The notes below the pieces were generated by a model, which was given only the letters and a program-made list of their open reading frames with translations, did not search any database and was not told the origin of the DNA. Both the position numbers and the translations under genes were made by a program. From Pontederia crassipes (lineage: Eukaryota > Streptophyta > Magnoliopsida > Commelinales > Pontederiaceae): a stretch of DNA of 64,000 nucleotides. The stretch covers positions 71,826,696 to 71,890,695 of the forward strand of contig CM060188.1 in NCBI GenBank assembly GCA_030549335.1, in the 5' to 3' direction. Positions within the stretch are counted from its first letter, which is position 1. Each line of letters opens with the position of its first letter. This document shows positions 1 through 47,972 of this stretch, in pieces.

Positions 1-2714
1 TCCTTGTACACTACTTCCTTCAACATTGGCTTAAGTCTCCTCTGAAATTGGGTTACAATTTTGCTGTTTTCTTCCATCAAAATCTTGTGCATGCAGATAG
101 AAGGGGAAATTTCCTTGATATTTGTTATGCTCCAAGCGATAGCCTTTCTGTGTTTGCGGAGTACTTCAAGTAACATGTTCTCCATTTCTTCTGTCAATGA
201 TGAAGACACAATTACAGGGAACTTATTAGTGTCTAAAAAACAATATTTAAGATGCACAGGTAAGGTTTTGAGTTCTGGAATAGGGGGTGGTAAATCTCCT
301 TCTTCTGACTCCTCTATACTAGAATCTTCATTCATTAATTCTTCCTCCAATTCCTCATTTTTAGCATCCTTCATTTGGGTCTCCACTATTTCATCGATAT
401 TGTCCCTGCCATGTGCATAAAAAATATCAATTGCAAAACAAGAAGAATTATCAATCGGATATTTCAAAACTTGTCCAATATTGAATGATAAGTCTGCGTC
501 ATTTATTCTTAATGTTATTTTTCCTTGTTGAACATCAATTAACATTCTTCCCGTGGCCAGAAATGGTCTGCCCAAGATTAATGGAGGCTCCTTTTCAGTC
601 TGCATATCAAGAACGACAAAGTCAGCAGGAAATATGAATTTGTCAACCCTTACTAGTACATCATCTAATAATCATTTGGGTTGCTTTATTGATTGATCGG
701 CTAGTTGAAGGAGAACTCTCATTTCTCTAAGTTGACTTGTGCCTAACTTCAAAAATATTGAATATGGCATCAAATTAATGATGGCACCTAAGTCACATAG
801 AGCGTTAGCACAAAAGAAATTTCCAATTGAGCATGGAATTGTGAAACTCCCTGGATCCTTCAATTTCTGAGGAAGATCTTGTTGATTTATAGCACAACAA
901 CTGGATGAAAGTTTTACCAGTCCAGATTCTTCTATCTTCCTCTTGTTGGTCAGGATGTCCTTCAAGAACTTAGCATAAATTGACATCTGCAAAATGGCTT
1001 CGGAAAATGGAATATTAATATGCAATTGTTTTAAAATTTCCAAGAACCTAGCAAATTGTTTATCTAATTTCTCCCTTTGATATTTCTATGGGTAAGAGAG
1101 TTTTCAAATTCTTTCATCTTCAGGCTTTTCTTGAAGCTTATCCTCTTTAGATGGTGCAGTGTTGTTTTGTATTTCTTCTTTTTCAACTTTTTCTTCCTGC
1201 AAAGGTGTCTCTGCTTCAGGAATTTTTGGACCTTCTAGCTGAAGTCCACTTCTCAGAACGATTGCATTTGCTTGCTCTTTCGGATTTTTCTCTGTGTTAC
1301 TAGGCAAGCTTCCTGGCTGTCTCCCAGATATCATGTTTGCCAGTTGACCAATCTGAGTTTTCAAATTTCTGATTGATGCATCCTGATTGGTGAACTTAGT
1401 CTTAACAGTTGTAATAAACTTTGATAAAACATCCTCTATGCTAGTCTTAGGTTCAAGACGAGGGTGATAAACGGGAGGTTGTGCTGGACCTCTATTGTTC
1501 ACCCATGAATAATTCGGAGGATTCCTCAACCCAGTGTTGTATGGATTGCTCCACACATTGTTTCTGAAAGCATTATTGGAGACATAATTAGCATCCTCAA
1601 AATTCTGTTGTTGAAAATTCATACCTGCTTGGCATTCATGATTAGGATGCCCTCCTTCACACATATCACAGATGATGTTTGAGATTTTGTTGATAGACTT
1701 TTGCGTCATTAGCATGTCCATTTTCCTTGCTAGGGCATCTAGTTGAGCTTGAATATGGCTTGCATTATCTATCTGATGAAATCCAGCTTTTTTTACTTTT
1801 GCATTTTGCCAACTGTTCAAGGCAAGTTTATCAAACAACCTATAAAGATCTTCAGGAGATCTGTCCACAATGGTCCCTCCAGCAGCAATATCAATCTTGT
1901 CCTTTATCTCAGCAGTCGCCCCATTATAGAAGTACTGAATTTGCTGGTACAGGGGAATGTTATGAATTGGGACCTAGCTGACTAGATCCTTGAATCTGTC
2001 CCAAGCTTCATGCATAGTTTTCAGTTTCCTGCTGAAAGAAAGAAGAGACTTCAGATAAACATCTAGCAGCTTTTTGGGGGGGACAATATTTATTAAGAAA
2101 CGCTTGTCGCATATCATCCCAAGTTCTTATGGTGCCTACAGGTAATGTAGCAAGTCACGTATAGGCTTTTCCTCTCAAAGAGAAAGGAAAAAGTCTTAAC
2201 CAGACTGCATCATCAGTTACTCCTTCAAATTTAAATGTTGAGCATAATTGAATGAACTTTGTGATATGGTTAAATGGTCTTCATCTCGATCTCCTCCAAA
2301 GTTCGTATTTGATATCATTTGAATCGTGCCCTGTTGAATTTGGAAATTGTTAGCACCAATTTCAGGAAGTGCAATACTCCCTCTTTCCTCGATCAGTGGA
2401 CCCATAGTGTAGTCTCTCATAGTTCTGTATGCAGGCGGAAGTGGTTGGTTCTCAATTTGCCTCTGTTGATCTGCCATCTTAACAATAGTGGAAATCTTCT
2501 TCTTCAGTTGTCTGGCAGTTCTCTCTATTCCAGGATCAAACACTAGTGGGCGTCCTGAACTTCGTGTATTATGCCTATGTTCCAAGGCACTAGTGTTAGA
2601 ATCCTCCAGGATGTGTGGATTATGAACTCTTCAATTCCTGCAACCACACCAATACAAATGAATGGTAATAATTCTCAAATTAATAAGCAAGATAAGAAAT
2701 TAAATATTAACTAG

Positions 2715-2732
2715 TCCCCAGCAACAGCGCCA
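2715..2732 (-). other. Primer-binding site, tRNA-Asp type
   Basis: On the minus strand this reads TGGCGCTGTTGCTGGGGA. That is nearly complementary to the 3' end of plant tRNA-Asp, the primer known for Athila-type elements. It sits six bases inside the LTR edge at 2739. Confidence 0.75.
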
Positions 2733-2738
2733 AAAACT

Positions 2739-4183
2739 TGATGCGAACTTAGAAACACTAGCAAACGCACTAATCGTTCAAGTAATAAAATGATGAGTAT
2801 AAAGTATCCTTCCCACGAGGACAAGAAATAATTAATAACTTCTCTTACTTATAACTTGAGAAAAGATAAATAGATTGTTTAATGTGAAAATAAGATGAAT
2901 AAATAATAAAAATATAAGACTACGATCAATGGAGTTTAAAAGTATAGATTTGATGAATAGGACTTATCTTGATTAATACCACTACTCACATATGAATTCT
3001 AGACAAAAGATGATGAATTAATAAAGTAAAATTCTCAATTTGATTTAATCGATATTTTAGGCTTTAAACCCTATTTTGAGATCAATAAAAGAGAGTAATC
3101 TTTTCAGTTTTTAATCTAATCTATTCAATCTCAAAACGCATTCAACTGGAATATAAAGTTAAGGGTTTTCTCAAGTCACCTTAACAACAACACAATTGGG
3201 TTTCTTGCGATTTCCCCAATTATGACATGTAAGAGAAAAATCAGAGAAAAACTCTAGAGAATCTAAAAACTTCTTTTCAGATAATCAAAAGATTCAAAAG
3301 AATAAATCTCAGGTAACAATTAATCAAATCTTCAAACATGCTATTCATCCATCAACTAATTGTACAAAGAATTCATAAAGAATAGGGTACAATCAAGAAA
3401 ATCCTAAAGAACTACTCTAATAAACTAGAGTACATCAATCTAAATATTGTTTCAGGAAAAGAAAAGAGAACAAGAAAAACTACTCCTAATTCTACCATCC
3501 TCTCTCGAGTTTCCGGCAGAACTTCGTTGTAGCCTCTGGATCTCCTTCACCAAGCCTTCAACCTCTGAATTATGCCCTCCAAAGATGATCTTCCAATTGA
3601 TTTGGGGTCTTCTTAAATAGTTTTTCCCGTAACATGGCTCAACAACCCGAAATCTTATAAAAAAGATGGATACAAATAACTTAAAACTGCCTAACGGAAC
3701 CGCCGTCACGGCCGTGAAGATCAAGTCGCACGGCCGTGACAGAACATCAATTTCTGGTCTTTCGCAGCACGGCCGTAATGACATACCGCACGGCCGTGAC
3801 AGAATGTCAGTTAGCCTTCGATTTGTACGGTCGTGATCATTTCTGCACGGGCGTGACAGAACGAAAGTTCCAAGCCTCCGATTTGTATGGCCGTGAAATT
3901 CATCGGCACGGTCGTGACAGAAAGATTGAATTTCGCTCTTCATTGCACGAGCGTGACATCTATTGGCACGGCCGTGCCAGATGCAAAAAGTTGTTTTCCA
4001 TAGCTTTTCCGTCCAAATTCCAACGTACTTCCATTCCCTGTCACAAATTCAATCAAGCCTAGGTAGAAGTCAATCTTTTGGGAATTTCTCTATATTTATA
4101 CTACTTTTTCCACTTTAAATCATGAAACATTCTTAAAGTTATAATAAATTGGCCTAACAATTATGCATGAATTCTATGCATCA
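2739..4183 (-). repeat. 5' LTR of the left-edge Tat/Athila-lineage element
   Basis: The LTR is bounded by TGATGC at 2739 and GCATCA at 4183 (TG...CA), about 1445 bp. The primer site lies just outside its right end in element sense. It carries an array of ten CACGGCCGTG-like palindromes at 3707-3976. The fragments at 4184-5271, 6220-7132, 40531-41861 and 46188-47454 are divergent relatives of this LTR. Confidence 0.8.
3707..3976. repeat. Array of ten CACGGCCGTG-like palindromic boxes with alternating 21/39-bp spacing
   Basis: Box starts are 3707, 3729, 3768, 3789, 3826, 3846, 3886, 3907, 3946 and 3967. Successive distances are 22, 39, 21, 37, 20, 40, 21, 39 and 21 bp, so the unit is a pair about 21 bp apart repeated every 58-61 bp. 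The boxes are conserved (CACGGCCGTG with one to three changes). Between pairs only a short flank (ACAGAA) after the second box is kept. The function is unknown. Possible readings are a decayed 60-bp tandem repeat or a clustered binding site inside the LTR. Confidence 0.85.
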
Positions 4184-7132
4184 GACACCAATTATTTCCA
4201 CTAAATGTAATGAATTTTCTCAACTTAGAATTAATTGAATCAATAATAAAGTGAATTTCCAAAATCAGTTAACCAATGTTTCAGGCTTTAACTACTATCT
4301 TATGAATAATTAGAGTAAAACAATCATTTCAGTTTTTAATTTACTCAATTAAATCATAAGATGCATTAAAATGGAATTAATATTAAAAGCTTTCTCAAGT
4401 CACCTTAATAACTACACAAATTAGGTCTCTTGCGATTTCCTTAATTGTGACATGCAATAAATAAGATCAATCCTAGAAACTATCACGAAAATAATCGTTT
4501 CTTCTCAGATAGCAATCAGATAACAAATCATGGAATCAAAGAAAAGCATTAAACATGAAATTGCAATTCTATTAAATATTCAAACCAAACTAATATTAAG
4601 AAGAATCCAATACATAACTAATGTCAAACTAGGATGACCCTAATAAAGAAATAAATCTGCTAAAATCAACATCAAATCTAGAATAAAAATGTAGGGAAAA
4701 GAAAACAAAAACTCTAGCGTAGACTAAGCGCGTCCTCTCTCGAGTTTCCGGCAGAGCTTTGTTGTTATCCTCGCACTTCTCCTATTTCTAGAATTCAAAA
4801 CTATGCTCCAGAGATGCTTTTCCAAGTTCTCTTCTGCATCATTTTATAGGTTTTTTCTTATCCCCTAAGGAAAGAAATCGAAAATATATTCAAAAAGTGG
4901 ATAAAAATAACTTTAAAATGGCCTAACCGACCGTTGTCACGGCCGTAATAGAAGGCTGTCAAGACTGAAAAATAAATTTTTTGCTGAAAAATGTCTCTGT
5001 CACGGCAAATTTTTGAGTGCAATATCTTTCTGTCACGGATATGAAAAGAAATGTCACGGCCGTGACAATCTTCTGAGCTGTTTTAGGCATTTTCTTTCTT
5101 TGATTTCGACGTTTTCTCATATCGTGCCACGAATAATTTTCAGACTTAGGTAGAAATCAAATCTAAAGGAAATTATATGAAAACAAATCAAAACTCCTCT
5201 TTTCTAAATATAAAAACATTCTAAAATGCTAATCAAATGACCTAAACTAATGCATGATTTTTTATGCATCAAATACCCTCAAGCTTAATATTTTGCTTGT
5301 CCTCAAGCAAATTTCAGATAAGACATAGGACTCAAATACAAAACCAATACTTTTCTCCCACTGTTCTTTTACATGACCATCACCAGAGTATCTGTTCTCA
5401 ACCAATACCCAGCCTTGCAGAATTCTTAGCATTCAAATATGTCTTTCTTGCATATTTACAAATAATATTAGTCAATCTCATAAGAGTATCAATATTGCAA
5501 CATAAGTTTTAAGGAGCTTATTTTCATACTATTATCATTTTACATTTCAGCATTAAGAAATTTTTTTTTCATTTTTTTAGAATTTAGAAACCCTCCATAT
5601 TGCACAAAATGGTCTATGTAATGGGCTTTCGACCGACGGATCCCAGAGCAGATGCCCTTAGGTCGCCAGGCAAGAATCCCATACGGATTTAATCACCCGG
5701 ACACACCAATATTCCAGAAGGTACTTTATACTTTTTACTTAACTGTTGGGGCTCAACTAGCCCTCTTTTCATCTTTATTTTTGCATTACAATTGTATAGC
5801 ATAATTATAAGCTCCAAAAAGCCTTAATATATTCAATAAAGATGCAATTATAATAAAGACTTAATAGAGAAATTAATCATTTAAAAGCTACTCCTTCTAC
5901 TTAGCAATAAACTCAATCAAAATCTCAATACTTTGGTGATACATGATAAAAAGAAACAATGATTGAATTTCATAAGTTAAGGGATGTTTTAAAAATAAAC
6001 TTAAAAGACAATAAAATAGTAAACAACGACAAATGAGATGGCATAAACTTTTTTTAAAATAAATTCAAAATTAGATGCATGTCAAACAAAATAAGATGAT
6101 CGTCTTAAAATGTCAAAAATAGACATGCCATGCGAATGAAATAAGATGTTATTATTCTCAGATTTATTCCTTTATTAGGGTCATCTTAGTTGAATCCTAT
6201 TTATATTTTGCCAAAAACTTGATGCGTGTAGAATTGATAGCAAACACTAACAAGTACACTAGGCGTTCAAGTAATAAAGAGAATGAGTAGAGTTATTATT
6301 CCCACAAAGACGGTTAATGACTTAGAAATATATGATTTCAAATGTGAATAATAAGAAAATAATAAAAACAAAGGAAATGATCACCTGAAGAAATAATGAT
6401 TTGATTATTAAGGCACCTAATTATCACCACTAGAATATAATGAATTTTCTCAACTTAGAATTAGTTGAATCAATAACAAAGTGAATTTGCAAAATTAGTT
6501 AACCAATGTTTAAGGCTTTAACTACTATCTTATGAATAATTAGAATAAATCAATCCTTTCAATTTTTAATTTACTCAATTAAATCATAAGATGCATTAAA
6601 ACGGAATTAATATTAAGGGCTTTCTCAAATCACCTTAATAACTACACAAATTAGGTCTCTTGCGATTTTCCTAATTGTGGCATACAATAAATAAGATCAA
6701 TCCTAGAAACTATTATAAAAATAATAACTTCTTCTCAGATAGCAATCAAACCAAAAATCATGGAATCAAAGGAAAGCATTAAACCTGAAATTGCAATGCT
6801 ATTAAAGTTTCAAATCAAATTAATATTAAGAAAAATCCAATACATAAATAAGGTTAAAAGGATGACTCTAATAAATAAATAAATATGCTAAAATCAACAT
6901 CAAATTTGGAATAAAAATGTAAGGAAAAGAAAACAAAATTCTAGCATAAGCTAAGCGCTTCCTCTCTCGAGTTTCCGGCAGAGCTTTGCTGTTGTCCTCG
7001 CATTTCTCCTCTTTCTAGGCTTCAAACTATGCTCCAGAGATGCTTTTCCAGGTTCTCTTCTGCATCCTTTTATAGGTTTTTTCTTATCCCCCAAGGAAAA
7101 AAATCGAAAATATATTCAAAAAGTGGATAAAA
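4184..7132 (-). mobile_element. Shrunken Tat-lineage LTR element, with partial LTRs at 4184-5271 and 6220-7132
   Basis: The 4184-5271 fragment ends in ATGCATCA, next to a polypurine-side sequence (reverse complement TTGAGGACAAGCAAAATATT, 5280-5310) that is also found before the right LTR at 46188. The second fragment starts TGATGCG at 6220, beside a primer-site remnant CCAAAAACT. The two share long blocks (for example 4420-4520 and 6640-6740). The interior is under 1 kb and non-coding, and it matches the 3' internal region at about 45380-46187 in reverse. A short LTR piece at about 6155-6205 is in the opposite orientation, so the copy has been rearranged. It is broken and old. Confidence 0.75.
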
Positions 7133-9110
7133 ATGGGAAGACCAAGTTATTCCAATCGCCATACATTTTCTAGCTTGTGTCCTAAGATTGAAATTTGCAT
7201 ACAAGAATTAACTTTTCAAGAGGAATTTTTTGGATTGCCATTAGAAGGAACTGGTGTGGTTTTGGGGGTACAGTGGTTGCAGAAAATAGGACCTGTTACT
7301 ATGGATTATAATAATCTCTCAATGGGATTCACATGGCAGCAGCAACATGTAATATTAAAGGGAATGAACAAATTAAGTCCTGAAGGGGTCACTGTTCATC
7401 AACTGAAGAAAATGATCACTGCTAGTGATATAATGACTTATTGGCATCTTACAATGAGTAAGGAAGATGAAGTCAACAATGCCCAAGGTGAACAGGAAAT
7501 GATAGATAAGGTTCTCAGTCAATTTGAATCTATTTTCTCTGAGCCAACTTCTTTACCTCCTTTTAGAGAAACACAACACTATATTCATTTGCTTCCTGGC
7601 ACTAAACCTGTAAATGTAAGGCCCTACAGATATCCTCGTTTTCAGAAAACTGAAATTGAGAAGTTAGTGAAGGAGATGTTGGAGCAAGGAATAATTCAAC
7701 ATAGCTCTAGTCCTTTTTCTTCACCAGTACTGTTAGTTAAAAAAAAGGATGGAACCTGGAGGTTTTGTGTGGACTATAGAGCATTAAATTGTGTTACCAT
7801 TAAAGATAAATTCCCTATTCCAACTATTGATGAGTTGTTAGATGAACTACATGGCGCAACGATATTCTCAAAATTGGATCTAAGGGCTGGATATCATCAA
7901 ATTCGAATGAGTCAAATGGATGTGCATAAAATTGCCTTTAGGACACATGAAGGGCATTATGAATTTTTGGTAATGCCATTTGGTCTTACAAATGCACCAG
8001 CAACTTTTCAAGATGTTATGAATAGACTATTTGGTCCATACTTAAGAAGGTTCGTGATAGTATTTTTTGATGATATCTTGATATATAGCCAAAGTTTGGA
8101 AGTTCACTCGCATCATTTACATGTTGCCTTAAAATGTTTGCAAGACAACAATTTTTACCTAAAGAAAAGCAAATGCAGTTTTGCTCAAAAGAGAATTGAG
8201 TACTTGGGACATATAGTATCTGATCGAGGTGTGGGGCCAGATGAGAAGAAAATAGCAGCAGTTCAAGATTGGCCTCAACCAACAACCTTAAAGCAATTAA
8301 GAGCATTTTTGGGATTAGCAGGATACTATAGAAGATTTGTAAAAGGTTATGCAAGTATAGCTAGCCCTTTAACTGACTTTTTGAAGGACTCCTTCAATTG
8401 GTCAGAAGCAGCTACAAAGGCATTCAACACTCTCAAGGAATCTTTAGTCTCAGCTCCTACTTTAATGTTACCTGATTTTTCTAAAGAATTTGTGGTGGAA
8501 ACTGATGCATCTGGTATGGGAATTGGTGTTGTGCTTTTACAAAATAATCATCCAATTTGTTATTACAGTAAGAAGCTATCTCAGACTATGCAAAGGGCTT
8601 CAGTTTATGTAAGAGAATTGTATGCCATTGTAGAAGCTATCAAAAAATGGAGACAATATTTGTTGGGGCATCATTTCACTATCAGAACTGACCATCAAAG
8701 CTTAAAGGAATTATTAACTCAAGTGATTCAAACTCCAGATCAACAAAAATATGTGTCTAAACTATTGGGATATGACTATACAGTGGTATATAAGCCTGGA
8801 GTGGACAATAGGGTGGCAGATGCATTGTCAAGATCCCCAGATCCTGTGAGACTCTTTTGTTGCCTAACTATGCCAATTTTTAAAGTCATTGATCAAATTA
8901 AGAAGGATTGCATTGATATTCCTCAGTGGCAACAACTTTACAAACAAATACAAAATGGAGAAAAGGAAGGCACATATTGGATGGCTAAAGATGGTCTTAT
9001 ATATAAAAAAGGAAAAATATTTTTGTTTTCTAGTTCCCCAATAATTTCTCTATTACTAAAGGAGTTTCATGAATCTTTTGTTGGAGGACATTTGGGGGTG
9101 CTAAAGACAT

Positions 9111-10160
9111 ATAAAAGATTATGCGCAGAATTTTATTGGGATGGCATTAAGAAATCTATAGAAGATTTTATCAGAAATTGTAGTGTGTGCCAGAAAGTCA
9201 AATATTGTACAACACAACCTGTTGGATTGTTGCAGCCTTTGCCTATTCCAGAGAGAGTGTGGGAAGATATTTCCATGGACTTTGTAACTTCCCTACCAGT
9301 TTCTCAAGGAAATACTGTGGTACTAGTTGTGGTGGATAGGCTATCTAAATATTGTCATTTTGGTCCTTTGTCAACACATTATACTGCTGCAAAAGTTGCA
9401 CGATTATTTGTAACTTTGATAGTCAGGTTACATGGTTTTCCACGGACTATAGTGTCTGATAGAGATGTAGTTTTCATGAGTGCTTTTTGGAAGGAACTAT
9501 TTAGTTTAAGTAACACTAAACTAAATATGAGTTCTGCTTATCATCCCCAATCCGATGGACAGACTGAGGTGGTTAATAGATGCTTGCAGCAGTACCTAAG
9601 GAGCTTTGCTATGGACAAACCTAATACATGGGTTAATAAAAGATTATGCGCAGAATTTTATTTGGATAGCATTAAGAAATCTGTAGAAGATTTTATCAGA
9701 AATTGTAGTGTGTGCCAGAAAGTCAAATATTGTACAACACAACCTGTTGGATTGTTGCAGCCTTTGCCTATTCCAGAGAGAGTGTGGGAAGATATTTCCA
9801 TGGACTTTGTAACTTCCCTACCAGTTTCTCAAGGAAATACTGTGGTACTAGTTGTGGTGGATAGGCTATCTAAATATTGTCATTTTGGTCCTTTGCCAAC
9901 ACATTATACTGCTGCAAAAGTTGCACGATTATTTGTAACTTTGATAGTCAGGTTACATGGTTTTCCACGGACTATAGTGTCTGATAGAGATGCAGTTTTC
10001 ATGAGTGCTTTTTGGAAGGAACTATTTAGTTTAAGTAACACTAAATTAAATATGAGTTCTGCTTATCATCCCCAATCCGATGGACAGACTGAGGTGGTTA
10101 ATAGATGCTTGCAGCAGTACCTAAGGAGCTTTGCTATGGACAAACCTAATACATGGGTTA
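9111..10160 (+). repeat. Two tandem near-identical 525-bp copies within integrase
   Basis: The stretch beginning ATAAAAGATTATGCGC at 9111 recurs at 9636, offset by 525 bp (175 codons). Reading the two copies side by side shows only about six to eight base differences. It covers the integrase zinc region and much of the catalytic core. The surrounding reading frame passes through both copies. The low divergence suggests a duplication younger than the element's arrival, or an assembly artefact. Confidence 0.85.
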
Positions 10161-10862
10161 CCTTTTTACCATGGGCAGAGTATTCATTTAATACCTCTTA
10201 CCATACAAGTTCCAAGTTAACACCTTTTGAAGTGGTGTATGGTCGACAACCTCCTACAATTCTTGCTTATGTTAAAGATCAAGCTCATGTGGAAGCTGTG
10301 GATATGGAACTGAGAGAAAGTGATGATGTCTTGAAACTTTTAAAGAAAAATCTAGTTCGAGTCCAACAGAGGATGAAGACTTTAGCTGATCAACACAGAG
10401 TTGTTAAAACATTTGAAGTGGGAGATTTGGTTTTTGTTAAACTCCAACCATATAAACAGGGTTCATTAGCACAGAGGAGCTCTCACAAACTTTCTCCTAA
10501 ATTTTATGGCCCCTTTCCTATCTCTAAACGCATAGGTTCAATGGCTTATGAGTTGTCTTTGCCTCGTTCCTCTAAACTCCATCCTATTTTTCATGTTTCT
10601 AAGTTGAAAAAGGCTCATGGTATTATGGAGCCATCTGTGGATCTACCCGAGGAAATTGCATTGATGGTCCTATCGTGGTTCCAGTGGCCATATTATCTTC
10701 TAGAGTTATCCAACGACAGGGAAATCTTGTTGAGCAAGTTCTCATTCAATGGGAAGGGCAAAACTTAGAAGATGCTACTTGGGAGGATCGCTCTAGGTTG
10801 CAAAAGAAATTTCCTGACTTGTGTCTCGAGGACGAGGTGGATTCTCTAAAGAGGGAGGGAGA

Positions 10863-16000: not shown

Positions 16001-18868
16001 GAATTTTACAAGAAGGAGAAGAAGACCTAGAGGCTTCCAAATTATGAAGAATGAATTTTAGATCTAAAATTCAAAGGTATATAAAGGGGTCCAACCTCTT
16101 TCTCCCCTCTCAATGATATTTTATTTGAATTGTGAGTTTCAAGAACACCTTGTTCATTGAAATTTTAGATCTAAATGATGTTTATGCCTAGATCTATATA
16201 CTTGGATCCATATTAGATTGTCATGATTAGATCTGTGTTCTTTATGCCCTAAATCTTCCTTTAGATGAATTTGGGGAAAAGCCCTAAATTATGATAATGA
16301 ATGATAATTGCATGTTTTAATATGTTTTATAATGCATAGATGATAAGAGATCATACCTACAATCTCTATAATGTTTTATATTATTTTTTATTGAAGTTTT
16401 GATCCCAAAAATTGAAAATTTCGAATTAAAAATCGACATTTCAGGACGTGCCAACCCTAGCAAGGGCTATGCCCGAGCGGATGAGATTGAGAGATTAAAC
16501 GGCTATCGGTCATGCCCATGACACCTTCGTCACGGTATCGTGACCAACTTGGTCACGATAGTGAGCGAGAGCGATGCTGAAATTTGAGATTGATATGGGC
16601 ACGAGGCTCACACGACCGTGACAAATATGAGCACGCCGTGACAGCACTAGGAACGATCGTGACAACACTAGGAACAACTGTGACAACACCAGGCATGACC
16701 ATGAAAGTGTTGGGCACGATCATGACATCTCTGGGCACGGGTGTGACATTGAAAAATGATTTTTATGATGTTTTAAACATATTTTCTTATGTATATATAT
16801 TATGTATTAATGTGTATTGATTGTATATGACACGTAATGCATGTTCAATCGTAATTAAGCTAAAATATGATGAATAATTGATATGAATGATTGATGTTTT
16901 GCAAAACATAATACACCTAAAGTTGGAAAATGTACTCACTCATCGATGTTGAGAAGCAAAGTCCTACACCTATATATGTACTTTAAAGAGATTTAAGCCT
17001 GCGAAGTAAAGTCCTGCATTTGTGTATGTACTTCTCAGGAAATAAAGTTTCTCATAAAAAAGTGTGCGTATTACTTGGAATAAAATCCCTCACTATTATC
17101 GTATTCCTCAAAATAAAGTTCCTCACTATTATAGTGTGCGTATTCCTTGAAATAACGTCACTCACTATTATGATGTGCATGTTTCTAAGGATGTGGCCTA
17201 GCTAGCCAATGTGATAATGTGCTATGATTTTTTCAACTATGTTAAGATCAAAGATGTTATAAGATAAAGTAAGAATGAAAGTGTAATTAACTTCAATGTA
17301 TCTTATAACAAAGAAAGTTAAGATGATGAAGAAGTAAAGATGAAAAGTAAAGTCCTGTATATACTTCAAGGGAACCTAAGTCTGAGAATTATGTACTTTT
17401 CAAGTAACAATGTCCCTTATCGTATATTGTGTCTATTCCTAAATATGATTAGGAATAAAGTTGCTCACTATTATGATGTGTGTTCCTAACATATGACTTA
17501 TGATATGGAATGAAAATTAAGATGTTATTATGTGATAAAGATGAAGGATGAATATGACACACGAATGATCCCATAATAAAGAAAGAAAAGAAGAATGAAA
17601 GAAGATCCAAAAGATTATAAAACAACCTTGAGGAGATGTAAAGTATGAAAGAAGTCAAAAAGTAAGGATCGATGAGTTATGAAGAAACTCCTAGAATTAC
17701 ATGATAATGAGAATGAAATGAAATGACATGTTATGTCATCCATGTTATGAATGTATGTTTCTATTGTATGATACTTGCAGATGATGGATATGAATTAAAT
17801 AGGTACAACACGATGTTTATGTTTCATAAATATTATATGAAGAATGAATGTAAATGTTATGTAATGTCATGTAAAGTTAATATCATGTGATAGGATAGCA
17901 TGACATGCATGACCTTTAGATACTCTAATTGGGAAATCCTACACTCTGGATCCGTAACCAAAATGAAGTGATGGATGGCAGCTCAAACTCATGATCAAGT
18001 GTTGCACATGCTTAGGGTTAAATAAGTCCTAAGATTTTAAATGAACAATGAGGCTAATGATGTAATGAAGAGTTTAGACATTTAATGTCTTATGGAATAT
18101 TAGTGTATTTGATTAATAAAAAGTTTTTATTTATTATGATTTTATCTAAATTGTCAAGTCTTCTACAAGTAAATGATGTATGGTGAACGAGCTAATGACG
18201 TAAAATTTTCCTAAATGTTCAAAATCTTTTTAGGTGGATTTCGGGTTGTTATAGTTGGTAATAACCTAAGTCTAAGTAATGTAATGTTAAGAAGTCTAAG
18301 TTCATGTGCAACCGTTATGAACAGTCATTAAAAGTAATGTTTAATGTTATATAGGTTTTGAAGTAACCAATTAATGTCTAGTTAATTTTTTGAAAAGGAT
18401 GGAAGCAAAAATTCTTCCAATGCTAATGTTAATGATGACATTCAAGTTCATAGTATTGTCAGGTTAATTATGCGTGGTATGTAAAATGAGGGATATGAAT
18501 ATGAGATGTTAGAAAAAAGTGAAATATAATGGTGCATGATACCTAGGTGATATTGATGGTTTCATAGGATGCCCTCAAATAGAAAATAAAAGTCATCTAA
18601 AGTTCAAAAAACATGAATGAAGAGGATCAAGGTAAGCTTTAGGCAATGTCCATTATGCCAATATTATAGATGTCTATATGATTGTTCATGCATTAATATC
18701 TTGGGCTTTGATTATGATTAAAGTAAAAGATAATGAAAGAAAATTTTTAGAGTGCATAAGTAAGATTGAAATTCAAGGACAAATTTCTTTTAAGAGGGCA
18801 AGGATGTAATAACCCAAAATTTTGGGTCAAGAGTATTTGGGCTTTTTGACTAAAGTCCTAATGTAAAT
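15787..18868 (+). mobile_element. Long-LTR Ty3/Gypsy element (Tekay/Del-like): 5' LTR, minimal interior, 3' LTR stub
   Basis: TGTAATAATTCAAAATTTTG at 15787 recurs as TGTAATAACCCAAAATTTTG at 18805, and the match continues for about 60 bp. The second copy is preceded by a typical pre-LTR sequence (GACAAATTTCTTTTAAGAGG). A primer-site remnant, GTTGGTAATAACCTAAG, at about 18252 marks the end of a 5' LTR of about 2.46 kb. This LTR length and these boundary words are typical of Tekay/Del. Only about 0.55 kb of interior is left and no coding sequence was recognised. The copy is broken. The LTR carries a 21-bp repeat (16631-16755) and a 35-45-bp repeat built on CTCACTATTAT (about 17060-17180, again near 17465). 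Confidence 0.7.
16631..16755 (+). repeat. 21-bp minisatellite with decayed CACGRYCGTGAC boxes
   Basis: Unit starts are 16631, 16651, 16672, 16693, 16714 and 16735, a 21-bp period with one 20-bp step. Typical units begin GCACGATCATGACA or GAACGATCGTGACA. Related boxes occur upstream (near 16530-16620) with looser spacing. Confidence 0.8.
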
Positions 18869-22800: not shown

Positions 22801-23755
22801 TTCACCTTCTGGACCTCGTCGAACAGCTCCATGCTGTGCGAATTGCTGTCATCCGCGAACACGACTATGCCGTCCAGATGGCGCTCCCGAACGATTCTGG
22901 GATACAAGCCAAAAATGTCAGATTGCAACAGCGAGAAAGGTCGAATCTTTGATACAGTAAGGGAGGCATTGAGGCAAAAAGGTCACACCTGAGAGCGTAA
23001 AGCCGCATTCGCGCCTCGAGGCGGTGGCGGTCATCCCAGCGAATGGGCATGTGCTCACGGAATGGGATATGAAGGACCGGGAGGTTGGATCGGGCAAGCA
23101 GAGCTGCGGTTTCATTTAAGCCGCCGGTGGGGGACGCATCGACGACTATCCAGGTGAGTGGGTACGGCGAGAGCTTGAGGGAGTGCATGAGGCCAGTGAG
23201 GTGGAGCGCCTGGAAGGTGCGGGCGTAGGTCGGGGTGACGACGAGGAGCGGCCGGGGGTTCTTGACGCCGCCGTACCGCAGGCGCTGCTCCTGCTGGACG
23301 CGCGCCAGGATGCGGTGCGCCCGCGTCACCTCATCGGGGTCCGGATGGGCCCCCGGGCGAACGAGGATGCCGTGGCGCCCAACGACGACGTGGCTGGACG
23401 CCCCCCGAAGGGTCGGTGGCGGAGGAGGAGGCGGCGGCGGCGGCGGCGGCGGCGTGGGAGGTGGAGGTGGAGAATGCGAGTGGACGTCGACGGCGGAGTC
23501 GCGGCGGTAGAGTTGGGTGGCGGGTGAGGAGACGAATAGGAGGAAGAAGAGGAAACGGGAGCAGCGGAAGCCGAGTAGGGCAGAGAGGAGGCAGCAGACG
23601 GCGTGGACGACGCGCCAGAAGAGAACGGCGGAGGGGGATGGCGACGCGGCGGCGAGCACGGGGCCGCCACCGGAACTGTCTACGGCCGATGTCGGGTGGT
23701 TGTGGAGTCCGGCGGTGGCCGGCCGGCGGGTGGCCGGCAACGCCGAGAGCTTCAT
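19894..23755 (-). CDS. IRX14: Glycosyltransferase family 43, IRX14-clade beta-1,4-xylan xylosyltransferase (three exons)
   Basis: The exons are 23755-22989, 22896-22345 and 20122-19894, joined by GT-AG introns of 92 and 2222 bp whose phases agree. The product is 515 aa, close to the family length of about 520. It is probably a type II Golgi membrane protein: a hydrophobic anchor at about residues 44-76, a proline-rich stem (96-114, nearly all Pro), then the GT43 domain (about 169-435). Visible landmarks are VVTPTYART (172-180), WIVVDA (202-207), the nucleotide-sugar/metal motif FADDSN (269-274), GHLIGWHTFNSLPY, LEWAGYVMNSRLVW and LLKDASFVEPLG. The tail SKHTPW and basic SRRSSRSKRKRE match IRX14 rather than IRX9. 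In known plants IRX14 works with IRX9 and IRX10 to extend the xylan backbone of secondary walls. The start is the first Met in frame with the anchor; the upstream extension of the frame lacks family similarity. Exon 1 is very GC-rich and exon 3 is not. Confidence 0.93.
20123..22344 (-). other. Intron 2 of the IRX14-like gene
   Basis: The intron is 2222 bp with GTTAGT at the donor and TGTGCAG at the acceptor. It contains no gene that I can support. Frames at 20782-21105 and 21565-21832 are short and lack recognisable domains. A stretch near 20985-21110 is slightly SINE-like but has no clear boxes or target duplication. Confidence 0.8.
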
Positions 23756-26286
23756 CGCTCTTCTCTCTGGAGCGTCGCCAGCTTTTTTTCTTTTGTTCTC
23801 GTCAACTCGATTTCTTTTTAGATCGTAGACGACGTCGTGGCGATAACTTGGACGGCACCAGACCGAGTCGTGAGATCGGCTTCTCCTCCTGTACAGGAAA
23901 CACCGAATCATCCATTTTAATTGGTTAGTGTTCTGGTTCACGTGTCTTATCATTGCAATTTTAGCTGATAACGCTGTTTCCTGTAGAAAGCCGGACTGCT
24001 GATCTCAAGTGTAGAAGGGGTTAGAGGAATCTACTGGGGGTAATGAAGGAAGTGGGGTGTGTTGGGTTTTTTTTGTCTTAGGACAAGGATTTGGGAGCTT
24101 TTGTTTATTTATGGATTTAAATATTTATTATTTGTGAAGGTTTTATTATTTTTAGGACAACAAAAAAGAGTGGTGGTATAATGGAGGGGGGATATAAAGA
24201 GATTTCTTTGTATATTTTTTTCTGTGGGAGTAGTCGCCCCTATCATCTGTTCCACCATACACATTTGTTTTCTGATTTATAGTAAAAAAATATTGAGAGG
24301 TAAGAAGAGATCATTAAGTAATCTGATCAGCTAAGAGATAGTTAAAACTATTAACATATGTTTGAATATATGTACGAGCGAAATTATGCTCCGACGAATG
24401 TATTAAAAATTTAAGAACAAAGAATTTTATTAGATGAAAATAAAATAATATTACAATTCATTTTTTATACCTCTAATTTTATTTAGGTAAGATAAGAATT
24501 TTGTACTGACTGAGACTTAGTATTAATCACTCCAAATATGACACCTATTATATGATATGAAAATAACTCAATTCTGAATTATAAAAAAGAATTTACCTAT
24601 CACATGATAATGGGATCCCCTTTTTATCCTCCACAAGCGAGATCCCCATAATACGAGAACGTCTCTTTACTTTGGGGTGTCTTACGACTAGATAGATGTT
24701 TAATTATTAACAATATATAATCGGTTTTCTAAGCTTACTATGATTTGCACTTTAAAGTGATGATTATTTCATACTAGCTTGATTCTCATTAATTTGTTTA
24801 TGTATAAATTAAGATACAGTAAGTTGGTAATTTGTTTGTGTAAATTAGGATACAGTAAATTGTGTATACTGTAAAATGTGGTATAAAAATGCTGTACATT
24901 TACTAGTTTTTTTGTTTCTTATTTAAGATCTTGATCGATTTATATGTCCAATTTGAACGTGCATTGTTTATATTCAAGTTGCCAAGTAGTTTGATACCTG
25001 AAGTTAACTGTGGCTTTGATTTTTCCCAAGAATCAAAAAAGAACAAAAGAAAAAACAGGTTGTGGAAGCTAAATTAATGCTTCAAATATCCAAATTTCAA
25101 CACACCAAATTCACCGTAGGTTCCGGGGCATTAACTACGTGACTCCACTTAATATAAAATTATAATTCGAATTGGACTTTAATTGCCAATTCGATAGCGA
25201 CTAATTTTCTGGACAATAATTAATATGCACTGAAACACCAAGTCAAAAGCTGCTTGGACAGAAGGGATTAAGATGATGTCGAATTTTGAAGTAGTGACAA
25301 ATGAGTTTGGATGTTTTAACTGCAACGTTTATTGATACGGTGGCCATTCTTTTTAAAGCTCAAGTCGTTAGAAAGATAATATTACGTAGAAATTGATGTG
25401 TTGATTAATTTTTTTTCAAAAACTTAAGTCGATAAGAAAAATGATATTATTAATTTTATATTCTTAACATTAACGTACCATAATATTCGGACATTGGTGT
25501 CACACACAACACTATGGAGAGACTAATTTGTTATCGTAAATTTTTTATGTTCGCAAAAATTTTAATTTAAGACCTTTAGTTAAGCAATGAAAAGTTATCA
25601 CTCCATCTGTCGTCGGTGAAAAAAAAGAGAAATGATTCATTGGTGTCAACATCAAATCCATGGATGGATGGATGGATAATTCCATCACCATCCATGCATG
25701 CAAGTGCTGTACTGCATATTAATCTGGGTGCTCTTTTCTTGACATGGACGTGGGTGTATAAGTTGATGGTGCACAGCATATATTTTGAGCACAACTGCAT
25801 AAGAGTTATATGTCAAAAATTAATATTGCAAGATGAGCAAATGGCTCAAAACTATGAATACTATTCAGGCCTATATGCTGCATGTGTGTGTGTGTGCTTA
25901 GAGGTCTGGTGGGAAGAACATTAATAATTGATTGAGAAGGAGACAAATTGAGTTGGTAATGGACAGCATGTCTCCTTTAACTTTTTTGGTTTTGAGGGCT
26001 TGAGAAAGATTTGTGGAGATACACCATGAGAGATGCATGCAGCAATTAGCCAAGTAATTAACACGTAGTGCTAATTAAAGTTGCATGGCAGACATTAATT
26101 AATCACTCTTAATTTGTTTGTGTGAATTGGCAGTTTCTCCCCATAGTGATGCTGATGCATTCACTCATCAAGATCTCCATGGCCACCCTTCCCCATCTGG
26201 TTACTTGTTAAGTTGTTGTTAATTGACACCCTTCTCCACCTTAATTTGTCCCTTCCTATTTAATTTTTAACTGAAGAAAAAGGAAC

Positions 26287-40045: not shown

Positions 40046-40736
40046 ATTGTGACTCTTTTGGCATCCCATTGTATCTAGTGTTTTTAAAATCGAACAGAAT
40101 TTGTCGTTTCGATTAGTTCAATCGTGAACTGGCCATTGATCTAGTTCAATTTAGTATTAAAAATTGATTTGTAAAAAATTGGATTGAATCGGGTCAATCC
40201 GGTCAGAACTGAGTTGAAACAAAAAATGGTTCAATCCATTTCTTCAAAAAAAAATCTGAAATAATGAAAACAAATAGAAAAAATGAAAGTATATTATAGT
40301 ATTAATAATGGAAGAATAGGAATAGGAGAAAAATAAATGATTATATTTTATAGAATGAATGTAAAAAAGGATATTAGTAATAAGAAAATTAAATTTGAAT
40401 TTGAAAATAAAAGATACTAAGATAACAATACAATCAAATTTAAATAAAAAGAGAAAATTATCATGAACTTAAATAAGATAATAAAATTTAAATCATTATA
40501 AATAATTTATATTAAAAATTGAAACATAAGTGATGCACGAAAAATCATGCATTAATTTAGTTTATTAAATTTATCTTTTTGAAATCTTCTGTGTTCAAGA
40601 AGGAGAGAATGAATTTATTTTTAGATAATTTCTTTAAGATTTGATTTATACCTAAGTTTGGATAATTTTATTGTAGAAGAACAAATTTACAAGAAAATGG
40701 TCGAAAACACATAAAAATATAGCAGATAGCCTCTGT

Positions 40737-40898
40737 CATGACCGTGCTCCACTTGATCACGGCCGTGCCTATACATGCCAGCAACAGGTTATTAAAAGCA
40801 TTTGTCACGGTTGTGCCTCACTCTATCACGATCGTGATCATGTTGAAACCAAATATATGTTCTCTATCATGGCCATGAAGGAGACCTCCACGGTTGTG
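40737..40898. repeat. Three pairs of CACGGCCGTG-like boxes, each pair 21 bp apart
   Basis: The box starts are 40737/40758, 40806/40827 and 40868/40889, and each pair is spaced exactly 21 bp. Boxes vary (CATGACCGTG, CACGATCGTG, CATGGCCATG) but keep the two-sided form. The second LTR has a reduced version: 46394 alone, 46442/46464 at 22 bp, and 46505. Confidence 0.85.
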
Positions 40899-42999
40899 AC
40901 AGCTGGCAGTTGGGTGGTTTGAAGGCAAATTTTATCCACTTTTCGAATAGATTTTCGATTTCTTTCTTTGGGGAAGAGAAAATCTATAAAGGGGACAGAA
41001 GAGACCCTAGAAAGGCATCCCTAGAGCATAGATTTAAAGCATACAAAGAGGAGAAGAGCAAGAACAATAAGAAGAGAGCACGTGCACAGTGGCTGCAAGA
41101 ATTCTTTGTTTCTTTTCTACACTTTTATATTAGATTTGATGTTACTCAACTATAGATTTATTCTTTCATATTAGATTTATTCTTTCATTAGGGTCATCTT
41201 AGTTGAACCCTATTTGTGTTTGGAGTCTTTCTTAATATCACTTTAGTTTAAATTTTTAATAGCATTGCAATTTCATGTTTAATGATTTTCTTTGATTCCA
41301 TGATTTATGATTTGATTGCTATGTGAGAAGTAATTATTTTCATAATAGTTTTTAGGATTGATCTTATTCATTGCATGCCGCAATTAGAAAAATCGAAAGA
41401 GACCTAATTTATGTAGTTATTAATGTGATTTTAGAAAGTCATTAATATTAATTCATTTTAATGCATTTATGATTAATTTGATAAGTTAAAAATTGAGATG
41501 ATTAATTTATTCTAATTATTCTTAAGATAGTAGTTAAAGCTTGAAACATTAATTAACTAATTTTGGGAATTGAACTTTATTATTAATTCAATTAATTATA
41601 AGTTGAGAAAATTCATTATATTTTAGGGGTGATAGTTAGGTGTCTTAATCATCAAATCCTTATTTCTCCAAATAATCATTTCTTTAATTTCATCATTTTA
41701 TTTTTATTCACATCTAAAATCAAATATTTTCTTAATTTCTCAATTAATAAAGTTAAAATAAAATCTAAGTTATTAACCGTCCTCGGGAATGATAACTCTA
41801 CTCATTCATTTTATTACTTGGGTGCACTTGTTAGCATTTTCTATCATTTTTACATGCATCAAATTTTTGGTGTCGTTGTCAGGGACAGAGTTTACTAACT
41901 TTTATTTTTTTTGCTTGTTAATTGATAGTTCTATTAAATTCCACGCATATTCATTTTAGTTCACATACTTTCACATTTTTTTTATTATCTTGTGTGATCA
42001 AGAAATATCTTCGAGAGACAATTTAGAATGACAACAAAACTAAAGACTATGGGAGATTACTATTTAGAAGAACAAAGAAAGATGATTGAGGCTCATGAAG
42101 CGCAAATATCACAAATTGCAAATGATAGTATCCAATTCATTCCCCTGGTGTTAAAGTTTATGTCAACGGCTGAGAAAAAATTTTAACTTCAAGAAAGAGC
42201 CTTTATGAAGTTGTTGGGACAAGTAGAGTAATTGGAGGCTAAGATCCAAATGAAAATTGATGTTCCTTAATCCACCCACTCAGAATCAAAATCCATCAAA
42301 TAAAAGTTGTTTAATTGATTGAAGTTATAGAGAAAATATTCACCCTACAAGATCAACTCATCAGCAATCTTCAATCACAACTAGCACAGTTGAAGGATCA
42401 ACAATCAATTATTATTTCTTCTCTTCCTCAATCCTTAAATTTTAATTCCAAATTTGATATCATGCAGGCAAAATTTTAAGAATTGGAGAAGAAAGTTAAG
42501 TTGGCTTCTCAAATTGATTATGAATCAGGGGAAAATATTGTGGACACAATCTATATCCATTATATGTCCATACCACTTGCAATACTTTAATCCAAGAAGG
42601 AGATGACCGAGAAAGAATTATTATCAAAAGTCATGGACTACTCAATGGAGGATCAAGGATACAAGAAAATATATTATGGAAGATGGACAAGTACGAAGAA
42701 GAATCGCTCCTTCAGAAAATTCAAGAACCATCCCACCATTACCTCCAAATCATTCATTGGTAGAAGGTAAGACATCATCATCATCTCAGGCATCATAAAT
42801 TTCTATGCATTGGAAGTCCAAAAATCAATCTCCACAAGGATGTGGCACGATCAATCTCCAAAAATCAATCTCCAAAAATCAATCAAGTCAAGCATGGTCA
42901 TTACGAACTCGACATTATAGGTCACGCTTGTTACAGATACATATCGACCGCATTACAATGGATGTGGCACGATCCAAAGGAGCACACTGACACCATCCA

Positions 43000-43850: not shown

Positions 43851-44169
43851 CCTCTGCTCACCGATTCATTTGGAACCAGTTGGTGTACATACACGATCAT
43901 GAAGGGTAAGGGAATGGCTGCGATCACCTCCTCACTCTCGAACGGTCGTGACAGAAGAAGGAAAGGCCGTGACAGTTCTAAAACTGGAGAGATGTCCGAA
44001 CCATGTTGAAAGAAGCCTGTGAGCCACCCTCAGAAGCATCCATGATTTGGAGAGCCTTCACATGTCTTGATTGTTTAGCAAGATCAAATTGAGTACCGTG
44101 ATAGGGAGCAATAGGTTCATGCGCGAAAACTTTGACAATTACCACTGACTCCCACTCGATTTTTACATG

Positions 44170-45180: not shown

Positions 45181-47972
45181 GGACACTTCATGCCACACCC
45201 GCCATCGCCATCACTAGAGGACTTGACTTGGGTTGTTTCTCCTCCTTTCTTTTGCACTTTACCACTTTTGTATTTTCTATTTACTTTTTTTGTATATGTA
45301 CAAACCTAACACTAGAATAGTGTGAGGTTCAAGTTTTGGAGAGGGACTTAGTCCGTTTTACATTTGCATGGCATGTCTACTTTCATCATTTTGAGTCGAT
45401 CATCTCATTTTTTGGCATGCATCTAACTATGAAAATTTTAAAATAATAATAATAAGAAAAAGTGTCATCTCATTTCTTTTTGTTTACTATTTTCTGTCTT
45501 AAAGTTTATTTTAAGAATATCGCTTAATCTATTAAATCCAATCACTATTTTTTTATCAGGTATCACCAGAGTATTAGGATTTGGATTGAGTTTGTTTCTA
45601 AGTAAAATGACTAGCTTTTAAATGATGAATTTCTCTATTATTTACTATGATGTTAGTCTTGATTATAATTGCATCTTTATTCAAAATATAAAGTCTTTTA
45701 TGAGCTTATAATTATGCTAAAATGACAAATAAATATAATGATAAAGTGGAAATAAAAAGAGGGCTAGTTGAGCCCAAGAAGTAAGTGAAAAGTTTAAAGT
45801 GCCCTCTGGAACATTGGTGTGTCCAAGTAATTAATTGTCTGGCCACCTAAGGAAAACTGTCGTGGGATCTATTGATCGAAAGCTCGTTACATAGACCACC
45901 TTGTGCAATATGAAGAAGCACACAAATATCTAAAAACACTAAGTGAAAAGAAAAAAAAGTATGAAAATAATCTCATGGAAGACTTGTCTAATATTATTTG
46001 TAGATATGCATGAAGGACATGTTTAAAGACTAAGAATTCTGCAAGGTTGAGTATTGATTGAGAATAGATACTTTGGTGATGGTCGTGTAAAAGAATAGTG
46101 GAAGAAAAGTATTGGTTTTATGATGGAGCCCTGTGCTTTTTCTGAAATTTGTTTGAGGACAAGCAAAATATTAAGCTTGGGAGTATTTAATACATGAAAA
46201 ATAATGCATTAATTTAGTTTATTTAATTTATATTTTTGAAATCTTATGTGTTCTAGAAGGAGATAATAGATTTGTTTTTAGATAATTTCTTTGAAATTTG
46301 ATTCTACCTAAGTTTACATAATTTTATTGCAGGAAAACAAATTTACAAGAAAATGGCCGAAAAACACATGAAAATACAATAGATAGCCTCTGTCATGGCC
46401 GTGCGTATACATGCCAGCAATGGATTATTAAAAGCCTCTATCACGAACGTGCCACACTTTTGTCACGGTTGTGATCATGTTGAAGCCGAATACATGGTCT
46501 CTGTCACAGCCATGACGGCGGGCAGTTGGGTGGTTTGAAAGCGCATTTTATTCACTTTTCGGATAGAGTTTTCTATTTTTTCCTTTGGGGGACGAGAAAA
46601 TCTAAAAAAAGGGGCAAAAGAGGTTAGAAAAACATCCTTGGAGCATAGATTTGAAGCACACAAAGAGGAGAAGAGCGAGAATAATAGCAAAGCTATGTTG
46701 CAAGAGTTCTTTGTTTTCTTTTACTACACTTTTATATTTGATTTAATATTACTCAACAGTAGATTTATTATTTCATTAGGATCATCTTAATTAAATCCTA
46801 TTTGTGTTTTGGAGTCTTTCTTAATATTAGTTTAGTTTGAATCTTTAATAGCATTGCAATTTCATATTTAATGCTTTCCTTTTCTTTCATTCCATGATTT
46901 ATGATTTGATTTGTATATGAGAAGAAGTAATTATTTTCATAATAGTTTCTAGGATTGATCTTATTCATTACATGTCACAATTACGGAAATCGAAAGAGAC
47001 CTAATTTGTATAGTTATTAAGGTGACTTGAAAGCCCTTAATATTAATTTTGTTTTAATGCATCTTATGCTTAATTAGATAAGTTAAAAGTCGAAAGGATT
47101 AACTTATTTTAATTATCCTTAATTAAAGCTTGAAACATTAATTAACTAATTTTGGGAATTAAACTTTATTATTTATTCAATTAATTCTAAGTTAAGAAAA
47201 ATCATTACATTTTAGGGGTGATAATTAGGTGTCTTAATCATCAAACCCTTATTTCTCTAGGTGATCATTTCTTTAATTTCATCATTTTTTTTCACATCTA
47301 AAATCAATTATTTTCTTAATTTCTCGATTAACAAGGTGAAAATAAAATCTAAATTATTAACCGTTCTCGTGGGAACGATAACTCTACTCATTCATTTTAT
47401 TACTTGAGTGATTAGTGCACTTGTTAGTGATTGTTATCATTTGTACACACATCAATAAGTAATATAATAAATTTTATAGGATGAACATGAAGAAGGAAAT
47501 AGATAATATGAAGAAAACATTGGAATTATATAATAAAATGTGGGAAGATAGTAATAAAGCAGGATTTAAATAAAAATAAAGTTATTCATAAAATTATTAA
47601 ATAATAAAATTAAATCATAACAAATATATAATTGAAAAATATAACAAATATTACTATTTGATTCATTTAAAATGATGATAATATGCTTTTTATTTTATTA
47701 TTTATGACCTTTTATACTTTAATTTATATTATATGTTCTTGAAGCAATACAAATAATTTTATTTTAGTACAAATTTGGTTCAATTCAGTCGAACCCGACT
47801 GAATTGATCGAACCATGACTAGTTGGCCACTGGTTCGATCACCAATCCGATTTTAAAAACATCGTAAAGTACAATTAAGATCTCTCTTGTTTTGTATTAT
47901 TTATTATACATATTTATACGAGTGGTTGATTCGTAAAGAACTTATTTTGAAATGTAGACATTAGGTTATTTT

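Follow-up and report, generated by a model that had tools for sequence, protein, structure and literature searches.

RESULTS

Retrotransposons and box arrays in the window

The window, i.e. the whole 64,000-nucleotide stretch of Pontederia crassipes DNA analysed here, is plant DNA in which the long terminal repeats (LTRs) of retrotransposons carry arrays of a short palindromic box (Table 1). As a box we counted every match to CACGGCCGTG with at most two mismatches. The window holds 32 such matches against an expectation of 3.09, and none of 100 shuffles reached 32. Of these matches, 24 fall within five short arrays that together cover 979 bp, among them all 12 that have no more than one mismatch. 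Owing to this concentration, the box is, within the window, a property of particular LTRs.

Table 1. Carrier elements, box arrays and associated signals, with positions in the window
Feature	Position	Strand	Remarks
5' LTR of element A	2741..4183	-	sense 4183 to 2741; 1443 bp; TGATGC...GCATCA ends; adjoins the primer site
Box array, element A	3707..3976	-	ten boxes forming five pairs; period about 60 bp
TATA-like CTATTTAAG, element A	3612..3620	-	in the sense direction, 86 bp beyond the last box; picked by eye from the B/C alignment
Primer-binding site TGGCGCTGTTGCTGGGGAC, element A	2714..2732	-	adjoins the LTR
gag-like open frame, element A	1107..1973	-	related frames lie beside LTRs in own-genome loci
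Protease-like open frame, element A	675..1085	-	label by eye
LTR of element B, incomplete	4184..5272	-	homology to the LTRs of element C
Boxes of element B	5055; 5034; 4938	-	5055 exact; 5034 with three mismatches, 21 bp away; 4938 with one mismatch
TATA box CTATAAAATG, element B	4849-4840	-	
LTR D	15787 to about 18253	+	presumably chromovirus-type, judging by its LTR ends and by the context of the primer site
Degenerate box array, LTR D	16505..16750	+	21-bp period; downstream of a TATA-like site at 16077-16087
5' LTR of element C (C5)	40533..41864	+	TATA at 40984
Box pairs of C5	40737/40758, 40806/40827, 40868/40889	+	21 bp each
Internal box pair, element C	43941..43971 (43941/43962)	+	two mismatches each, 21 bp apart; outside the LTRs
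3' LTR of element C (C3)	46190..47455	+	four boxes

Element A is, as far as its sequence tells, an Athila-like Ty3/gypsy element. Its own gag-like and protease-like frames gave no match above the cutoff in a Pfam search, so that the label comes from the primer-binding site, which we take to be of the Athila type, and from the relatives of the element. Full-length relatives, up to 93% identical, are found in loci of the same genome. Element A seems to have landed within element B's LTR, whose homology ends at 4183/4184, the boundary of element A. Element C spans 40533-47455, and its two LTRs are 80% identical.

The array of element A

The original prediction described boxes inside an LTR that alternate between spacings of about 21 and 39 bp. 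This description was borne out: the array falls in the 5' LTR of element A, and its ten boxes (starts at 3707, 3729, 3768, 3789, 3826, 3846, 3886, 3907, 3946 and 3967) follow one another at start-to-start distances of 22, 39, 21, 37, 20, 40, 21, 39 and 21 bp, with 22, 21, 20, 21 and 21 bp within the pairs. Four boxes match CACGGCCGTG exactly, three with one mismatch and three with two. The DNA between the pairs, which had been called largely unlike, is in fact related in this array, with a mean spacer identity of 0.70 compared to 0.54 for shuffled spacers; the box columns are nevertheless far better kept, at a mean column identity across the five units of 0.87 compared to 0.40 elsewhere. Based on the related spacers and a 57-bp unit that Tandem Repeats Finder reports at 3788-3922, the array of element A is a decayed tandem repeat, and the 60-bp period is a trait of element A's subfamily.

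Are the boxes then only the remnants of a satellite? A tandem repeat could have grown by slippage in an ancestral LTR, and the boxes could have decayed slowest by chance or gene conversion, without any protein being involved. The repeat character of the element A array fits this explanation, and so does the comparison of the two LTRs of element C, in which two length differences each equal exactly one box-to-box distance. Two box pairs of C5 appear as single boxes in C3 through these 21-bp length differences (40737-40898 compared to 46394-46514), a pattern expected from slippage or from recombination between boxes.

The pair distance itself was compared with chance placement, and the predicted 21-bp spacing held for A and C5. 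When ten boxes were placed at random, at least five of their distances fell within 20-22 bp in 0.035% of the trials for element A; for C5, at least three of five distances did so in 0.36% of the trials; for B (6%) and C3 (18%) the spacing is not significant alone. The LTRs of B and C align on both sides of the array, but the array itself gave no BLAST alignment, and in a forced alignment the agreement is mostly limited to the boxes. Between the arrays of A, B and C5, the identity of the boxes is 0.73-0.80, a value inflated by the fact that boxes were picked by their likeness to the consensus, and that of the spacers 0.45-0.55 compared to 0.49-0.51 after shuffling.

Box pairs across the genome

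Is the close pairing of boxes a common feature of this genome? To answer this question, we searched its 1.13 Gb (43 contigs) for exact box pairs with spacers of 8-14 bp, corresponding to start distances of 18-24 bp. We found 529 such pairs, while a reversed control pattern gave 0. The 50 pairs listed of the 529 comprise 31 with a distance of 21 bp and 19 with a distance of 22 bp, and none has another distance although 18-24 bp were allowed. We then considered 42 loci (168,564 bp), fetched from contigs C1 to C4 only and seeded by intact pairs, which contain 49 exact pairs, 48 of them from the 50 listed. With at most two mismatches, 375 boxes occur in these loci, compared to 6 to 37 matches for six control palindromes.

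The exact pairs 18-24 bp apart, which served as seeds, were dropped from the count of distances. Among the remaining distances of up to 30 bp between neighbouring boxes, 110 of 117 are 20-22 bp: nine at 20, 70 at 21 and 31 at 22 bp, besides one at 6, two at 9, one at 16, two at 27 and one at 30 bp. The longer gaps vary, with 88 at 31-60 bp and 47 at 61-130 bp, and the pair is thus not merely an array period. The spacers within close pairs form 44 groups when clustered at nine matching bases (30 at 21 bp, 10 at 22 bp and 4 at 20 bp), 9 groups at eight matching bases and one merged group at seven. Helical phasing of the longer gaps is not significant: the raw gaps look periodic, but after collapse by family and cluster (34 values) the signal at 10.5 bp is R = 0.24 (p = 0.14).

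Carrier families

The loci and the window together contain 52 arrays of 3 to 13 boxes each, three being the cut used. By the similarity of their flanks the arrays form eight families, and close pairs of 20-22 bp occur in all eight. These families cannot all be counted as independent; four are single arrays, and one of these, family 5 (L033), lies beside sequence that matches the LTR of element B.

Wherever coding parts of the carriers were seen, they are of the gypsy type (gag relatives of element A, Ty3_capsid, reverse transcriptase and RNase H similar to a chromovirus pol, ATHILA and SH3_Tf2-1 matches). Family 0, with 29 arrays, takes in elements A and C, and gag relatives of A occur in eight loci. 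An Athila-type primer site with at most four mismatches is present in 7 of the 42 loci, all of family 0. In family 3 (L056), a Pfam ATHILA match (PF03078) occurs together with an integrase core, and a frame of element C at 44136-44498 resembles the ATHILA-matching part of this locus. Family 1, with 12 arrays, has a primer site of the initiator-Met type in L050, and gag, reverse transcriptase and RNase H after such a site in L065; L045 encodes an SH3_Tf2-1 domain and a chromodomain match that lies under its cutoff. In family 2 (5 arrays), the initiator-Met-type site is found in two loci, and none of the frames tried matched a known family. This site, defined as 12 bases with one mismatch allowed, is weak alone because it is also present in two family-0 loci (L032 and L037); in L050 and L020 it lies directly 3' of an LTR-like end. 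The carriers appear, by their coding parts and primer sites, to span at least the Athila-like and the chromovirus-type branches of Ty3/gypsy.

Position of the arrays in the LTR

The first box lies 208 (A), 209 (B), 205 (C5) and 205 bp (C3) from the LTR start. In A, B and C5, a stretch of 85-88 bp, as counted from the coordinates, separates the last box from the TATA box. Of the family-0 arrays in the loci, 23 of 26 could be placed; their first box is 197-228 bp from the LTR start, and 206-209 bp in 18 of the 23. The projected TATA site follows the last box of these 23 arrays by 4-147 bp, distances that are rough owing to the BLAST projection and limited to sites accepted up to 400 bp downstream. 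In the Athila-like LTRs, the array starts some 207 bp into the LTR and lies ahead of the projected TATA box. This placement in the upper LTR was seen in A, B, C5 and the 23 of 26 family-0 arrays, but not in LTR D.

Sequence profile and change rates of the boxes

A profile of 106 distinct 21-bp pairs, symmetric by construction since the strands were pooled, contains 1.1-2.0 bits at each box position and at most 0.09 bit at the five middle spacer bases. The flanks extend the dyad, with CTG and then T or G before the box and A or C and then CAG after it.

Within the box, change per site is more frequent at the two central bases than at CpG. The 23 boxes found in A, B and C have changes at 14 of their 46 central sites compared to 12 of 92 CpG sites (p = 0.02), a difference that is significant in A alone (p = 0.013) and not in B, C5 or C3 alone. 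The central and CpG changes in the loci amount to 54/342 and 52/684 in family 0, 32/192 and 33/384 in family 1, and 19/96 and 20/192 in family 2; in family 0, the first CpG cytosine is as variable as the box centre. Methylation decay alone should strike CpG hardest, yet the centres vary more, which points to the CACG half-sites.

We further compared nine copies of the A family, each with element A, so that private changes of A are counted nine times. With the seed boxes dropped, CpG sites are changed at 25/252 in the boxes compared to 39/125 in the spacers (p = 8e-7) and 59/320 over the remaining LTR (p = 0.004). Over all sites, boxes and spacers barely differ once the seed boxes, accounting for 176 sites, are dropped (87/661 compared to 227/1399, p = 0.08); with the seed boxes kept, the values are 95/837 and 227/1399 (p = 0.0015). 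The all-site rate of the boxes even exceeds that of the rest of the LTR (971/10465, p = 0.0016). A slower substitution in boxes than in spacers is therefore found at CpG sites and hardly when all sites are taken together. In the same copies, the first box of a pair (in the sense direction) is better kept, with 24 of 335 sites changed compared to 63 of 326 in the second, which suggests unequal roles of the two boxes.

The two LTRs of element C differ at 7/40 box sites, 15/80 array-spacer sites and 121/1116 other sites; the boxes had no protection after insertion of this element. We infer that active lineages are under constraint and dead copies are not, which would be in keeping with a promoter element.

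How do these results bear on a decayed satellite? The near-equal all-site rates of boxes and spacers in the A-family copies (p = 0.08) and the change of the C boxes at the pace of the array spacers are what it would predict. However, it leaves unexplained why the same box and distance occur in families whose spacers share almost nothing and whose longer gaps vary, why 110 of 117 non-seed distances up to 30 bp fall at 20-22 bp, and why CpG change is about three times rarer in boxes than in the adjacent spacers. We therefore consider a satellite origin without function unlikely as a general explanation; the alternative put forward in the original prediction, a decayed 60-bp satellite, describes the period of the element A subfamily and not the box and its pairing, which recur in unlike families with unlike spacers.

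Folding of the arrays

Palindromes could also act at the RNA level, by folding the transcript into hairpins that serve small-RNA silencing or packaging. The A and C5 arrays indeed fold better than their shuffles (z = -3.7 and -3.8, with 0 of 200 shuffles as stable in each case), and in the fold of the C5 array boxes 1 and 6, 2 and 5, and 3 and 4 pair in a nested order. Palindromes of maize Sireviruses are described as small-RNA hotspots in the passages cited (PMC5311732, PMC10760457). Such folding is, however, expected from any direct repeat of a palindrome, and the box stems would be just about 10 to 14 bp long. Furthermore, C>T and G>A changes are about equally common on the sense strand among the 23 boxes found in A, B and C (14/30 and 12/30), as two-strand methylation decay gives, and no Rfam family reached its gathering score in 2400-7200. 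An RNA-level or silencing signal hence seems to us quite improbable. A coincidence of the pair distance with Dicer sizes (21-22) was considered separately and rejected by inference, since the stems would be of only that 10-14 bp length.

Searches outside the genome

Viral contigs contained matches to the paired box (6 stretches, GC 0.54-0.69) and to the extended box (12 stretches, GC 0.55-0.70), both of which we set aside as chance because their composition is not plant-like. The primer-site search of these contigs gave 0 matches, and the search with a protein of element A gave one pattern match and no confirmed relative. A scan of genome contigs yielded a single plant-like record, L007 (BMWJ01000030.1, 3922 bp), which is filed under Streptomyces clavifer, has 37% GC and contains an LTR and an Athila-type primer site; its presence in this bacterial record is probably contamination. 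No box within two mismatches was found in L007, whose tandem array has a different motif and ends 27 bp before the TATA.

DISCUSSION

Gypsy elements make up a large part of many plant genomes, and to our knowledge little is known of what turns their promoters on. The paired box described here is, in our judgement, a real and probably functional part of the promoter grammar of Gypsy LTRs, recurring through the sampled genome. The original prediction of a protein-binding array is well supported at the sequence level by the pairing in unlike LTR families and by box CpGs that resist decay; helical phasing is not significant beyond the close pair.

We consider it rather likely that the boxes are paired dyad sites for a sequence-specific, probably dimeric nuclear protein, and that they form an upstream activating region in the U3 of Athila-like LTRs. 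Each box would be a dyad-symmetric candidate site with the core CACG-NN-CGTG, extended to roughly CTGKCACGGCCGTGMCAG, to which one such protein could bind. The two boxes of a pair are two helical turns apart, and two dimers might thereby come to lie on the same face of the DNA. Ahead of the TATA box, the array would then act in the U3 promoter, with activation rather than repression as its presumed effect, and the factor may be encoded by the host and common to the element lineages. Two observations run counter to a reading as an upstream enhancer: the array of LTR D lies downstream of its TATA-like site, and the related LTR in L007 has a different tandem motif before its TATA and no box.

Repeated activator sites in the U3 upstream of the TATA box are known from the LTRs of the Copia elements Tnt1, Tto1 and ONSEN, with other motifs and stress-linked factors. 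The closest parallel is found in the RM boxes of Sireviruses (Ty1/copia), many-copy CGG-CCG palindromes in the upper LTR half, 200-400 bp from its start and shortly upstream of the TATA box, which are CpG-dense and surrounded by diverged DNA; in the passages cited, the authors identified no single binding factor (Bousios et al. 2010, PMC2829016). Later work, in the parts cited, treats these palindromes as cis-regulatory and as small-RNA hotspots (PMC5311732, PMC10760457). Similarly, CACGGCCGTG holds CGGCCG and equals its own reverse complement, and the Athila-like carriers, unlike LTR D, have their boxes in the upper LTR before the TATA box. Sireviruses also have internal box copies, with extra boxes located upstream of an envelope-like gene; element C has an internal pair. 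The carriers here are not Copia but Ty3/gypsy and thus no members of the Sirevirus RM-box group, and their dyad is extended by the flanks. The copy number is often below the at least eight per Sirevirus element (A 10, B 3, C5 6, C3 4). The A array has a GC of 0.53 and a CpG observed/expected ratio of 1.44 over 284 bp and contains only a short run of CpG island, a feature of the Sirevirus arrays, and the arrays of B, C5 and C3 are at or below 49% GC. Finally, the boxes here are paired at 21-22 bp, a rule that the cited passages do not state for RM boxes (PMC2829016). By analogy, the Gypsy boxes may work like the Sirevirus RM boxes and add a strict pairing.

Arrays of short motifs in noncoding DNA of transposable elements are also known from other systems. 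The targets of VANC in VANDAL elements are likewise short motifs amassed in tandem arrays of rapid turnover, although the cited parts describe them in DNA transposons, with an element-encoded binder, a non-palindromic motif in one orientation and no fixed pair distance (PMC5735166, PMC10398659). Retand elements share with our carriers the tandem repeats in Ty3/gypsy noncoding DNA, but their position is between pol and the 3' LTR, they are family-specific and, in the text cited, they have no shared palindromic box (PMC11963269). An exact text search of open-licence literature for the box and its variants returned no plant-retrotransposon title among the matches listed, which is weak evidence of absence.

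In line with the VANDAL example, the boxes could be docking sites of an anti-silencing protein encoded by the elements themselves, like VANC of Arabidopsis, and not of a host activator. The architecture is similar in that VANC motifs also cluster in fast-turnover tandem arrays of noncoding element DNA (PMC5735166, PMC10398659). On the other hand, the box is common to lineages with differing coding parts, which is not predicted for an element-specific protein, the VANC motifs described in the passages cited lack palindromic symmetry (PMC5735166), and no candidate gene came up in the course of the analysis. We regard such an element-encoded binder as very improbable.

A host protein, our preferred reader of the boxes, would leave room for a wider speculation, which we advance tentatively and hold for somewhat doubtful: at least two separate Ty3/gypsy lineages, an Athila-like and a chromovirus-type one, might have recruited one and the same host factor via the paired palindrome at a strict 21-22 bp, whether by convergence or by exchange. 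The code, shared between retrotransposons, would be comparable to the CGG-CCG code of Sireviruses, and a protein of the same kind might perhaps read it. A factor common to unrelated lineages, if there is one, would account for the joint activation of element families and provide a single lever for silencing them. In any case, the paired dyad with its constant spacing can serve as a concrete bait in the search for the candidate factor and gives a testable promoter grammar.

Further features of the window

Outside the box arrays, the window contains a chromovirus-type pol frame (7133-10768) with a 525-bp in-frame tandem duplication of the integrase part. The copies at 9111-9410 and 9636-9935 are 99% identical, and one open frame holds two H2C2 and two rve stretches. 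Direct repeats at 49172-49804 and 53157-53787, about 3985 bp apart and 95-97% identical, are perhaps the LTRs of another short element. On the minus strand, 22865-23953 is a plant gene fragment with a match to glycosyltransferase family 43.
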